From Pleurostoma richardsiae (taxonomy: Eukaryota > Ascomycota > Sordariomycetes > Calosphaeriales > Pleurostomataceae), in NCBI GenBank assembly GCA_030052745.1, contig JANBVO010000023.1, positions 186,001 through 250,000 of the forward strand: a DNA stretch of 64,000 nt. Reading direction: 5' to 3'. The notes beneath the pieces were generated by a model. It was given only the letters and a program-made list of their open reading frames with translations. It was not told where the DNA came from and made no database searches. The translations under genes were made by a program, and so were the position numbers. Positions 56,758 through 63,508 of the stretch are shown one piece after another (the first letter of the stretch is position 1; each line of letters begins with the position of its first letter).

Positions 56758-57902
56758 CCGGCGGAAGGCAAGACAAGCACTCTGAAGAATGTTTAGGTAT
56801 TCATGTTTAACAATCTTTCCAGATAGTCGGAATCAATGCAGAAACGGTTACGGATGTCACGTCGACCGACTTCCCTGGGCACTACCCAGGCGAGGACAAC
56901 TCGTGGGACATCGAGGCGTTCCGACGCGGCTTCGAAGTCAAATTCCACCAGAACAAGCAGCATGACGCCTCCTTCTCGCTGATCGGCATCGACGCCTCCA
57001 TTGCCAACGCCCTCCGGCGCATCCTCATCGCCGAGATCCCTACCCTCGCCATCGAGAACGTCTTCATCGAGAACAACACCTCCGTGATACAGGATGAGGT
57101 GCTCGCCCACCGCCTGGGCCTCATCCCCTTCAAGGGCGGCAAGCGTGGCCTGCACGACTTCCTCAAGTGGTACAAGAAGCCCGAGGACGGCACCGACCCC
57201 TTCGACACGTGCTACGACTTCAACACGGTCAAGCTCGAGCTGCGCGTCGAGTGCACGCACAACCGCGACGCCGCCAAGGACGAGACGGACCCCAGGAGGC
57301 TGTACCACCACGCGCACGTCTACGCCAAGGACATCGTCTTCGTGCCCGAGGGCCGTCAGGCCGAGTTCTTCTCGGGCGAGGACGCCATCGCCCCCGTCAA
57401 CCCGGACATCCTCATCGCCAAGCTGAGGCCCGGCCAGGCCATCGACCTCGAGATGCACATGCACAAGGGCATCGGCGCCGACCACGCGAAGTTCTCGCCC
57501 GTCTGCACGGCGAGCTACCGGCTGATGCCGACCATCACCATCACGCGGCCGATCCTGGGCGCGGATGCCGAGAAGTTTGCGGAGTGCTTCCCTCCGGGAG
57601 TGATCGGGCTGGACAAGGTCACGGCGAAGGATGCGGCGCGGGCGGGCAGCGGGTACGAGGGCCACAGGGGCGAGCTCAAGGCCGTGGTGCTGGACCCCAT
57701 GCGCGACACGGTGAGCAGGGAGTGCCTGCGGCACAAGGAGTTCGAGGGCAAGGTGAAGCTAGGCAGGAGGAGGGACCACTTCATCTTCCAGATCGAGAGC
57801 ACCGGGCAGTGGGACAGCGACGAGCTGTTCCTAGAGGCGGTGAAGCACCTCAAGACGAAGGCTGCCAAGCTGGAGAAGCAGGTGGTTAACATGGTTAGGT
57901 AA
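56720..57902 (+). CDS. RPC40: RNA polymerases I and III shared subunit AC40 (Rpc40)
   Basis: Alpha-like subunit that pairs with AC19 to nucleate Pol I and Pol III. Exons 56720-56767 and 56823-57902 give 375 aa. The 55-bp intron has a GC donor (gcaaga) and a ttccag acceptor, phase 0. No GT donor in the short first exon reconstitutes the frame, whereas this one yields RRKIVGINAETVTDVTSTDFPGHYPGED. Conserved blocks: FSLIGIDASIANALRRILIA, EIPTLAIENVFIENNTSVIQDE, LAHRLGLIPF and the C-terminal HFIFQIESTGQWDSDELF. The second exon is very GC-rich. Convergent with UBA3. Confidence 0.95.
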
Positions 57903-58158: not shown

Positions 58159-59817
58159 TCACTTAAACCGCAGAACGAACTTGAATGATACCGTCGCAAA
58201 CGCAGGGTCAGTGACTCCGACCTCCTGGCCGTCCACGAGGCCGAGTTCCATCAGCGTTCTGGAGAGGTTCGGTCTCGTCTGCTCCTCCAGGCCGGGAGGA
58301 AACTGCATATACAGCGTCTTGTCCTCCGTCCGGATCGACGGCTTCTTGAGCTGTGCCTCAGGCCGCACCGCCAGCGAGTCCAGAAGGTCCTGGAGGGTCT
58401 CATTCGGGTTGACCTCCAGCGGCCGCGCCCTAACACCGCAAACCGGGCAGTCGTCCTTCTTCTCGTGCTTGAACGTGTACGTGTAAATAGCGTCGTCGCC
58501 CGAGTACATCATGTAGTTCTCACGCAGGCCCAACGACGGCGCGCACGACGTCGCGATCTTCATGGCCTCGTTGCAGCAGCTGGCGGCGATGATGGCATTG
58601 GTGGATGCGATCGCCGGGATGATGTTCTTGACAACACCCTGGGTGAGCGAGTAGGTGACGCCCGGGATGTTGAACTCGCGCGCCCGCGCGAGCGCCTTCT
58701 CGTACAGCCACTGGATATGTTGCGGGTCGTCCTTGTCGAGCTTCGGAAACGGCTTCTCCTGATCCCAGGCGATGATGTGCGCCCATTCGATGCAGTGCTC
58801 CGGCTGCCGGGGGATGGTGGCGATGGTGCAGAGGGGGACAGCGGCACGCGGAGCGTGCATGTCCAGCTGGCACTCTATGCAGGAGGTGAACGTCGGAAAG
58901 ATGACCCGTGATTGCCCCTTGAACCCTGCGAGAAAATCAGTCATCATGTCTCTGGATAGACGCCAAAATAGGGTGGTAGCTGCCAACCTTCAGTGCCTCC
59001 ATCAATAAGCGGCTTCAGACTATCCGGATCATCCTCGTCTACCATATTGACCAGCGTCGCATTGATCCACCGGCGAGCCTCAATGCTGTCTAGGCCGCAT
59101 ACAACTAGTTGAAACTGCATGTAGAAATCCTCATCGAAGTCCTGTATGCGGCAGTTGTGCGGCGTGATCTTGACTCCCTTTACACGTCTTTCAACGAAGC
59201 TCGCAGCCACCTCGGCCTTGAACTTGCCGACGTCGGCCTTGCGAAAGAGGAACTGTCGGTTTAAGTTGGAGATGTCTATCGTATCTGCCACGGCTGTGTG
59301 AGCTCTCTTTCTCTCCTCCTCCACGTCTGCTCCACTTGGGTGTTGCCCAGCCTAGCTTCCGTGAACGTACCCATATCGATGACGTGAATGTCCTTGAAAC
59401 CCGACAAGGCCAGATCCTTCAAGATTTCACATCCTAACCCTCCAGCTCCTCTATATTTCGGGTTTATATCAGCATATGGCGTGGAATTCGGCGCTGTGGG
59501 CGGAAGGGAACTCACATCACCCTGTGATGGCCGGTTAGCTGCCTGATGGTTCCTCGCGTTGAATGATATACAAGTAGACGTGGACACTCACAGCACTTTG
59601 ATCTTCTCCATACTTGACACGACATTATCGCCGTCAAAGCCGGACTCAGGATCTGTAAACGGACCGGCTGTAGTCCGGACTTTGTCGAGGTACTTCCTGG
59701 AGACGGGGGGTGGCCGTGTGAGCATGAGTAACCACGATTTAGATATGCGCCGCCTTCCTACCATCGTGAGGTCTGGCTCGGGCCAGAGCCTTCTTCTATC
59801 TCCTCCATGGCGGTCAT
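58159..59817 (-). CDS. UBA3: NEDD8-activating enzyme E1 catalytic subunit Uba3
   Basis: Activates NEDD8/Rub1 with Ula1/APP-BP1 for cullin neddylation. Six exons: 59817-59762, 59696-59592, 59521-59516, 59450-59371, 59284-58988 and 58925-58159, giving 436 aa. Exon 3 is only 6 nt (GGTGAT). It supplies V-I of the adenylation motif so that the protein reads KVLVIGAGGLG. Further motifs: [16 protein letters not shown], the zinc-binding pair C197/C200 and the CPVCG motif, and catalytic C214 in [12 protein letters not shown]-terminal E2-binding ubiquitin fold ends at RFK. The start at 59817 (MTAMEEIE) makes a normal length. An in-frame ATG at 60012 would add 65 residues without family features. It is divergent from TEL2. 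Confidence 0.93.
59516..59521 (-). other. 6-nt microexon of UBA3
   Basis: On the minus strand the sequence reads ccatcacag|GGTGAT|gtgagttcc, an acceptor directly followed six bases later by a strong donor. The flanking introns are 70 bp (59522-59591, with ctaac) and 65 bp (59451-59515). Joining CT|GGTGAT|A keeps frame and codes L-V-I, completing the Rossmann strand before GAGGLG. Skipping it also keeps frame but deletes V-I. Confidence 0.85.
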
Positions 59818-60385
59818 GCCGTGCCTCTCCACGTGTTTCCCAGGCGCAGCAGGTTTGTCGGGTGTGTTGAGCGGAATGCCAGGGCAGAGTTGGACGAGCG
59901 CGGGCTGTAGGTTCAATTGGAAAGTTATTGGCGGGGTCGTCAGTTTCGAGATGGAGCTGTCGAGGAGCTGCCTTATCGGCCAGCCGATAAGCCTGCTGAG
60001 GGGCCACTCCATTGCGCTAAATTTAAGGTGTGGTAACAGTTACCTTAGCACAGACCCTCCCGCTAAAACCAGGCACCAGCAATGGGCTTTTAGTGAGTAT
60101 GACAGCGACGTGCATGAGAGAGAAGCTTGCTCGTACGGGCGGCATTTTGTCTCCAAAGAGGACTGAGATGATTTAAAACCCTGATCTTTCGCGATTACGT
60201 CCCGATAGATATCTCTCTCTCCGGCTCGTCCATGGTCTGGCTGTCAGCTTTGCTTTTCTTGACCAGCAGGACGGCTTCATGGCAGCCTCTCACAGAGCCA
60301 AGGCTTTCGTCCCCGAGTGAGCCCAGTGAGCTCGCCTCACGTCAGACCGAACCATACGAACATACGAGCATCCTCCGGTAGAATC
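59818..60385. other. Divergent promoter region UBA3 / TEL2
   Basis: 568 bp. Both alternative upstream frames (UBA3 to 60012, TEL2 to a GTG at 60317) are open but show no conservation. No specific element recognised. Confidence 0.5.
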
Positions 60386-63300
60386 ATGGAAGGGCTTCTC
60401 AGTCAGGTCAGCAAGACATATCGCAGCGAAGCACAAGTGCAACAACCCTTGCTGCAGGAGGTCCAGCTCAGCGGCGGGCGAACTGCTGCCTCCACTCGCG
60501 GAAGCTTTCAGGGAGGCTTGTTTGACGAGGCCCTGGAAGCCTTGAGGTCAGAGCCAGACTATGAGACACTGATAGCCGTGCTCAAATACTTACTGGCCGG
60601 CGGGAAGACGTCTGGGGACTCTTTCAGCATCACTGTCCCTGGCCCTCAGAGTGCAAAGGCTGTTCAGATCTTGGTCGCTGACATTGTGCCAAACTACTGG
60701 GTGTTGCTTAAAGAGTCCGATACGCCGGCAGAGAAAAGAAATTCGACGGCTTCCGATCTGGACCTATTGTTGCATTGTCTTCGAAGCATTACCGGGATAA
60801 ATGCTGTCTTGGCGCGTCTGAGGACGTTGCTGCAAGAGAGGAGGGCCGAAAAGCTAGACGCGCAACGGACAGATACAGCCTTGAACTTGCCCATTCTCTT
60901 AGAACTCCTATGTGACCTGCTTGACGGCGACGACCGAGTGCAGCAGATATGGATCGCCGCCTCATCGGGAATGGACAAGCCCCAGGCAAGGCGCCCCTTG
61001 ACTCAGGAAGTCCTCAACCTACTTGGTGGCGGGAAGATTCTATCTTTAGCCGCTGAAGCACAGCATGTTCTCGCCCCCAAATCAAGCGAAAACAGCAATG
61101 GATTCTGGGTGGCAGATGGAGCAGAGTACAGTAAATGGTTGGCTCGAAACATTTCTGAGTGGGCAAGGCAGATATCGCATAATCCTGAGGATGACGCGAA
61201 GCTTTGTTCGGACTTCCTGGGGAAGGCTTTGCGGTTAGGATATGCTGGTAAGACTACCCAGACGCAATTATGGCGATGCTTACTGACTGTTAAGATGATG
61301 TTGTGAAGCATTTCGTGAATGAGCTTCTGCTCAAAGACGATATAAGTGCTGAAACATTCCGCAAGGTCTTCAGCCATCTTCCTGCATTAGAGCAAAGGAA
61401 AATCTTGTTTTCTATCTTCAAGTTCCTCTCTGAGCGCTTTCTCAACAGCCTAGAACTTCAAAACCCCTCCACTCCCGACGCGATAATATCTGGAGTGGCT
61501 CGTGTCATTACCCGGTTGGTGGGGGATTCACAGGTTGCCAGAGATCATCTTGTCGCTTGGTCAACCAACTCAACCGGAGCTGGACTTGGTGACGGAGTAG
61601 GCATTCGACGAGCTGTGCTCGCTGTGCTGTCGCAGGACAGAGACTCTATTTTGACGGTACTCGAGAAGAGCCTGAGCCAATTCGGTGATCAGCTTTATAT
61701 CAAGCACTCCCCTATACTCCAGCAGGAAGGTTGGTACCACCTCATAACCCGCAGGCTCTACACTTTGTCTTCAGTGCTGATATAGCCTCTCAGTTCATGT
61801 ACAAGTGCTCTTGATAAGCGCCAGTTACGTCAACAGGCTCGCCCCAGTCAAGCTCTCACTACTCACAAAATCGGGCTCCTTCATGAACGCGATATCGAAC
61901 AGACTAGCCGCCTCGCAGACCAGGGTCCGTTTTCTCGGGATGATCGTTGGCGAAGCACTGTCGAGTCTCGTCAATAAAGGCGATAAAAAGTTGAACTTCA
62001 ACATGGAGGAAACCAACTCCGAGGAGGCAGAATGGCTCAAAGGGCTGACGCATGTCACGGACCCTATTGGCCCCATGGATCCTTTGGTGACCGATAAAAC
62101 TACAACCGGAGCAGCGACAGCGAGGAAGGCTCGAGTGCAACCGAAGCTTCCTAAGCAGCCACCTCCTCCGCCAAGTAAGGCAAAGGCAATTATCGAAGAG
62201 GTAGATTCAGAGGAGAGTGAAGACGATGACTTGGTCCCCTACGCGAAGCCTGAGTCGGATGAAGAAGACTCGGACGACGACCCCACTACAGTCAGACGGG
62301 ACAAGCCAAAGGCACCTGTCTATATACGGGACCTCATAATCTACCTACGAGACGCTGAAAATTACGACCGACAGAAGCTTGCGCTGACAACAGCGCCGAT
62401 ATTAATACGCAGAAAAGCGAACTATGGAACAGAAGTCAAGGAGCATGCGGAAGAGCTGGCTTCCCTCCTAATCGGCCTTGAGGACAAGTATGAGCTGGAG
62501 GACTTTTATAACCTCAAACTCCAAGGCATGGTCGCCCTCGTCGTGGCTCATCCTCAAAAGATGGGACCCTGGTTCGCGAAGACTTTCTTCGACGGCGACT
62601 ATTCCATATCACAGCGAGCATCTGTTCTTACCGTGCTGGGTTTAAGCGCGCGAGAAATATCAGGGTTCGAGACTTCGGAGTACGCACACGCAGCATCCTT
62701 CCCTTCAAAGACTCTTCCCGAACGGATCGAGAAATTATACCTCGGGCCAGAGACATCCCAGGGGAAACTACAATCTTCATCGTCTCTAAAAGCTCTCCCG
62801 TCAAATGCACTCGACAGCATATCCAGATCCTTGACGTCTAACTTCCTTGCGCCCCTGGCCGCCGGTGCCGCAGACGCTGCGACTGGCCCCGACGTTCTCA
62901 AACTGTCCACTTTCACCTCCCGCCTCCAGGAGAAATCTTCCTCTTCCGTCTCCGGCTCCCGTCCTGCGGCGCCTCGCCCTCGCGTTCGTGCTATCCCAAA
63001 CACCACGGCGCAGCTCATCTGTACCTCATTCTTCTTCCCGTTGACTGCGCGCTTTCAGCACGCTCTACACTCCACAGCAAGCCGTGCTCGCGGCATCGTC
63101 TTCCAGCCCTTCCTCCTAGCGCTGTACCTGCGCACTCTCGCCCTACTCCTTCATGCCGCCGGGCCCAGTACTCTTGCGCTTCCCGACATGACGTCCGAGC
63201 TGTGGGGCCTGCTCCTGGGGAGCGGTGTGCGCGCACACGCTGCCGGGGACCTGGGTGTCACACATGCGGTGCTATTCGCACTGTTGACACTGCTAGAGGT

Positions 63301-63508
63301 GAACGCAGACCGGTTGCGAGACCTGTGTCGGGATAACGGGAGGGAGGTGGTAGAGACACAGGAGTGGGTGGCGCAGGTCTTTGAGAAGACGAGAGGAGAG
63401 GATGGGGGTGAGGAGAACGAGGTCAAAATGCTGGCCGCGGGAGTGCTGATCAGGCTAAGGGAAGGGATGGATAAGTATCGCATGTTGCTGGTTGGAGATA
63501 TGATTTGA
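60386..63508 (+). CDS. TEL2: Telomere length regulation protein Tel2
   Basis: Core of the TTT (Tel2-Tti1-Tti2) co-chaperone complex that matures PIKK kinases (TOR, ATM/Tel1, ATR/Mec1). Exons 60386-61247, 61295-61729 and 61794-63508 (introns 47 and 64 bp, phase 1) give 1003 aa. The N-terminal half is an alpha-helical solenoid. Then comes FLGMIVGEALSSLVNKGDKKLNFNME, a conserved-looking family block. An acidic Ser-rich linker (EEVDSEESEDDDL) follows; in mammals the equivalent linker is CK2-phosphorylated to recruit R2TP (known biology, inferred here). The Telomere_reg-2 domain starts about residue 607 at YIRDLIIYLRDAENYD. ATG 60386 is the first in frame. Confidence 0.95.

Follow-up and report, generated by a model that had tools for sequence, protein, structure and literature searches.

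A predicted six-nucleotide internal exon within the nucleotide-binding motif of a fungal UBA3 gene

The microexon of the Schizosaccharomyces pombe cgs2 gene, said to have been tested experimentally by Romfo in 2000, is reportedly handled by intron definition. That mode of recognition has been proposed to prevail in fungi (PMC3925392). In Fusarium, CYP621A contains an exon of a single nucleotide. It was aligned in 20 orthologues by the count of the abstract, or in 24 genes by that of the main text, and it appears in SRA reads from two species; nearly all earlier gene models were wrong at this exon (PMC12940212). An 8-nt exon, gg/cac/gag, within a conserved motif is given in the same paper, and P450 genes of Phanerochaete chrysosporium have microexons of 2–10 residues, the shortest exon being 6 bp (PMC1184071). 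Twin introns, or stwintrons, in which one intron lies within a splice element of another, have been described for Hypoxylaceae, Xylariaceae, and Aspergillus (PMC6616335 and other work). A literature search on UBA3 microexons and fungal neddylation exons returned no prior report of a 6-nt UBA3 exon among the matches listed.

The gene described here lies on the reverse strand of the window, meaning the whole 64,000-nt stretch of Pleurostoma richardsiae DNA that was analysed. The short GT–AG introns are in keeping with a filamentous fungus. It is predicted to run from an ATG at 59817 to a stop codon at 58161–58159 and to comprise six exons, counting the microexon. Exon 1 (59762–59817) begins at this ATG and is followed by intron A (59697–59761, 65 nt) and exon 2 (59592–59696), whose encoded stretch ends in MEKIKVL and whose last bases are AAA GTG CT. 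Intron B (59522–59591, 70 nt, GTGAGT...GCTAAC...CACAG) and intron C (59451–59515, 65 nt, GTGAGT...GCTGAT...ATATAG) flank exon 3, the microexon GGTGAT (59516–59521, 6 nt). Exon 4 (59371–59450) opens with A GGA GCT, and intron D (59285–59370, 86 nt), exon 5 (58988–59284), and intron E (58926–58987, 62 nt) lead to exon 6 (58159–58925), which holds the part aligning with the human PMCTIASMPRLPEHCIEY region, the E2_bind domain, and the stop codon. A second in-frame ATG at 60012 on the same strand, 65 codons upstream, would allow a possible N-terminal extension (59818–60012).

The spliced product has 436 residues, and its frame is intact throughout. Pfam searches returned ThiF (PF00899) at 190.1 bits, the adenylation domain with its GxGxxG motif (VIGAGGLG), and a C-terminal E2_bind domain (PF08825) at 107.7 bits, which is the only E2_bind match found in the 39.4-Mb genome (136 contigs). 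The best solved relative is human UBA3 (chain 1yov_B, E=1.7e-147), and the nearest solved relatives belong to the NEDD8 E1 rather than to SUMO or ubiquitin E1: eight UBA3 sequences scored between 1.7e-147 and 3.9e-145, against 7.7e-45 for the best SUMO E1 subunit. An NCBIfam search of the product found no UBA3-specific model, all 22 rows falling under their curated cut-offs. From domain content and similarity, the gene is assigned to UBA3, which encodes the catalytic part of the NEDD8-activating enzyme, and it is the sole copy found in the genome; this bears out the first-pass annotation of the locus. Scanning of a genome contig collection with the spliced UBA3 protein gave 29 pattern matches and of a viral contig collection with UBA3 exon 6 gave 5, with no relative in either.

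Around the UBA3 gene, an ORF at 57084–57902 (+), convergent with it, encodes Rpb3/RpoA insert and Rpb3/Rpb11 dimerisation domains (RNA polymerase). On the other side, an ORF at 61805–63508 (+) encodes a TEL2-like Telomere_reg-2 domain (PF10193, 144.8 bits). Upstream of the latter, an ORF from 60386, divergent from UBA3, matched no family; these two ORFs may be part of one gene.

When exons 2, 3, and 4 are joined, the codons read AAA GTG CT/G GTG AT/A GGA GCT (K V L V I G A), so that, within KVL-VI-GAGGLG, GGTGAT completes the Leu codon with its last base, encodes Val in full, and contributes two bases to the Ile codon. The 13-residue stretch around the microexon is identical to human UBA3, with KVLVIGAGGLG restored. 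A 6-nt exon between two short introns, with frame and phase agreeing on both sides, and the completion of the ATP-binding motif by V-I had both been put forward in the first-pass annotation, and both stand. As a predicted coding exon of at most ~30 nt between complete introns (70 and 65 nt), GGTGAT belongs to the class of microexons. That an error in the sequence, or decay of a gene copy, imitates an exon here has a near-negligible probability: no point in favour of this was seen, and it is opposed by the intact 436-residue frame with both domains, by the finding of a single E2_bind match in the genome search, and by the donor, branch-site match, and acceptor found in each of introns B and C.

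Alternative splice solutions were examined by enumerating open, phase-compatible GT/GC–AG readings within 59696–59371 (minimum intron length 35 nt); a second enumeration reproduced the counts. None of the 65 single-intron readings yielded KVLVIGAGGLG, and only 1 of the 2026 two-intron readings did; VIGAGGLG was present in 34 of the latter, with KVL ahead of it in that one reading only. These counts bear on the idea that there is no genuine 6-nt exon here and that the region is removed as a stwintron or as one long intron, for which it may be said that introns B and C lie near enough to pass for a single 141-nt intron. Apart from the motif having no other enumerated route, use of the donor CTG/GTGATG after removal of intron B loses the frame (KVLRSWRVRM followed by a stop), and the score of this donor, −4.33 with intron B in place and −4.93 once it has been removed, lies below the 3.26 of GAT/GTGAGT. 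The splice elements of B and C are each complete, neither interrupted by the other intron, and the need of the motif for the six bases between them argues against a stwintron. We regard any such solution as very improbable.

A shuffle null was also employed, in which the interior of the 141 nt was permuted with dinucleotides kept and the outer ends fixed (20,000 trials per donor rule). An in-frame open microexon of 1–30 nt flanked by branch sites arose in 1 of 20,000 shuffles with strict donors and in 5 of 20,000 with loose donors, and the motif was restored in 0 of 20,000 under either rule; these figures apply to the 141-nt site alone and not to the choice among many sites in 64 kb. From homology, we infer that GGTGAT is present in the mature mRNA.

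Donors were scored with published Fusarium frequencies (PMC5677156). Among the 38 GTs in 59900–59200, the donors of introns A–D ranked as the top four. The donor of intron E (GTTGGC) was weak at −1.26, and donor score alone therefore does not decide splicing in this gene. The last exon base ahead of donors B and C is an unfavoured T, at 15% in Fusarium according to that same source. Matches to the CTRAY branch site are present in intron B (CTAAC, with 13 nt from its A to the intron end) and intron C (CTGAT, 18 nt), and also in intron E (CTGAT). They are absent from intron A, which has CTCAT/CTCAC/CTAAA-type matches only, and from intron D, which has CTCAC close to its 3' end.

Introns B and C are each in phase 2 and start with GTGA, so that retention of either brings an immediate TGA right at the junction: a retained intron B gives KVL and then a stop, and a retained intron C gives KVLVM and then a stop. 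One might accordingly suppose that the crowded splice sites lead to regulated or frequent retention of B or C, with premature stops and nonsense-mediated decay limiting expression. A precedent for retention could be seen in the S. pombe cgs2 microexon, which reportedly made the intron after it harder to remove (Romfo 2000). Among alternative splicing events in the fungi studied, retention also ranks first, with 61% against 3% for skipped exons (PMC3925392). In Trichoderma reesei, intron 1 of Xlr2 is retained in some transcripts, from which the authors infer inefficient microexon splicing (PMC11121469). The junction stops themselves, however, are what consensus and phase would lead one to expect, since any phase 2 intron starting with GTGA yields TGA if retained. 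We consider regulated or frequent retention rather unlikely. In a related reading, the intron pair would act as a kinetic checkpoint on neddylation, with one intron having to leave before the other, either retained intron ending the frame, and splicing efficiency governing how much UBA3 is made from the sole copy found in the genome; this appears improbable.

Skipping of the whole 141 nt, by contrast with retention, is in frame, as had been noted at first pass, and leaves an open reading, KVLGAGGLG. It had been proposed further that regulated skipping of the 6 nt would give a UBA3 without V-I, with weaker ATP binding, and would so tune neddylation. Two reports offer fungal parallels: a 20-nt switch-like microexon in Trichoderma virens Xlr2 (PMC11121469) and a 33-nt exon in Neurospora rtnA that was skipped in 3 of 13 ESTs (PMC6616335). 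In the former, reads joining exons 1 and 3 were not seen by the authors, so the Xlr2 switch is not a simple skip. At the UBA3 locus, donors B and C outscore every GT in 59900–59200 other than the inferred donors, and V and I belong to a motif identical in human UBA3. The Pfam ThiF score falls only modestly without V-I, from 190.1 to 182.9 bits. This 7.2-bit loss is not decisive, and, judged by profile fit alone, a skip might be tolerated; identity with human UBA3 is the stronger sequence argument for V-I. No feature found in the sequence speaks for skipping as a means of tuning neddylation, and the low share of skipping among fungal splicing events (3% against 61% for retention, as cited above) also speaks against it. 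Being in frame aside, regulated skipping has little support, and we judge it highly doubtful.

Constitutive inclusion of GGTGAT is the reading best supported, because retention ends the frame and skipping removes two strand residues from the only UBA3 found. It is very probable that the single UBA3 gene found in this fungal genome has a constitutively included 6-nt internal exon. Inclusion would be required for a working enzyme, since V-I belongs to the strand that precedes the nucleotide loop (GxGxxG), a placement that follows from the Rossmann-type adenylation fold. Skipping would accordingly be expected to cause loss of function. Introns B and C are short, and each appears to be equipped with a donor, a branch-site match, and an acceptor, so the sites could pair across each intron and GGTGAT would not have to be recognised as an exon. 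The shortness of these two introns and their good donors and branch sites support the first-pass suggestion that intron definition is the likely recognition mode. Introns B and C would probably be removed successively rather than together, because 6 nt would offer scant space for U1 downstream and 3'-site factors upstream to bind simultaneously. A splicing failure would be expected to appear as intron retention, and would thus mean that function is lost, not that a shortened isoform is made, given the TGA on retention and the prevalence of retention over skipping.

The remainder of the genome was then considered for comparable arrangements. There are 12 ThiF matches in the genome, including 3 within the UBA3 gene, and a motif search of these 12 loci gave matches in L001, L010, L005, L008, and L002. 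L001 and L010 read as a ubiquitin-E1-like gene and L005 and L008 as a SUMO-E1-like gene, and in both genes the motif is uninterrupted. The match in L002 lies in a frame that looks fortuitous.

The pattern branch site–CAG–N6–GTGAGT was found at 5 places genome-wide, against 2 in a reversed control. Four broader microexon patterns matched 30, 35, 71, and 43 places, below the 78, 58, 91, and 64 of their controls, so consensus patterns alone show no microexon excess. Three patterns (5, 30, and 35 places) yielded 65 distinct places, 62 of which were cut out as loci; the patterns with 71 and 43 matches (114 places) lay outside this set. An open two-intron reading was possible in 21 of the 62 loci and impossible in 41. 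A hexamer coding score did not discriminate among the 21, UBA3 itself (L014) ranking 10th.

Besides UBA3, the Pfam check covered 4 of the 21 open loci (L019, L059, L051, and L037), and the microexon brought a gain in score at L019 and L059; L051 matched no family. At L059 (G000:C54:239746-239780, −), a candidate 15-nt exon, TTCTGCGGCGTAAAC (FCGVN), lies between introns of 53 and 51 nt and completes a sugar-transporter motif, and Sugar_tr scored 39.9 bits with the exon and 16.6 without. At L019 (G000:C2:621977-622012, +), a candidate 9-nt exon, TCTGAAGCT (SEA), lies between introns of 69 and 51 nt and completes an OPT-transporter motif, with OPT at 98.6 bits with the exon and 88.2 without. L037 (G000:C76:204146-204181, −) is a ubiquitin-like gene, matching ubiquitin in Pfam with the exon placed by eye; its first coding exon may be only ATGCAGAT (8 nt), and a possible 5'UTR intron ends immediately before the ATG. 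With 4 of 21 open loci checked besides UBA3, the 9- and 15-nt cases speak to the existence of such exons, as candidates, and not to their frequency. The remark at first pass that exons this small are rare needs tempering, in view of these candidates in the same genome and of the published fungal exons of 1 nt and 6 bp.

Gene predictors tend to miss exons of this type, and an erroneous model of this conserved gene would either drop two residues from the motif or disrupt the frame. The UBA3 case adds a fungal candidate exon of <10 nt outside P450 genes, and, together with the other candidates, it suggests that very small exons within conserved motifs can be tolerated in fungi where the introns are short and their signals good. 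S. pombe cgs2 offers a parallel in mode of recognition, a fungal microexon reportedly under intron definition, in a different gene. Like the exon of UBA3, the tiny exon of Fusarium CYP621A sits inside an apparent single intron (139 nt in F. graminearum) and completes a conserved motif; it is, however, of 1 nt and was aligned across orthologues and seen in reads, whereas that of UBA3 is of 6 nt and is predicted from one genome. The 6-bp exon of Phanerochaete and the 8-nt exon are in the size class of the UBA3 exon, but these are basidiomycete P450 genes and not ubiquitin-like E1. The 20-nt microexon of T. virens Xlr2 is also from a filamentous ascomycete; its inclusion depends on glucose and its isoforms differ in function (PMC11121469), whereas no sign of regulation emerged for the UBA3 exon. 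Stwintrons resemble introns B and C in that a pair of U2 introns in a fungal gene lie nearly adjacent, but they are nested, with one element interrupted, whereas the UBA3 introns stand apart by six coding bases and have their own elements each. Showing no sign of a switch role here, the 6-nt exon of UBA3 is a tidy new example of a kind already known in fungi.
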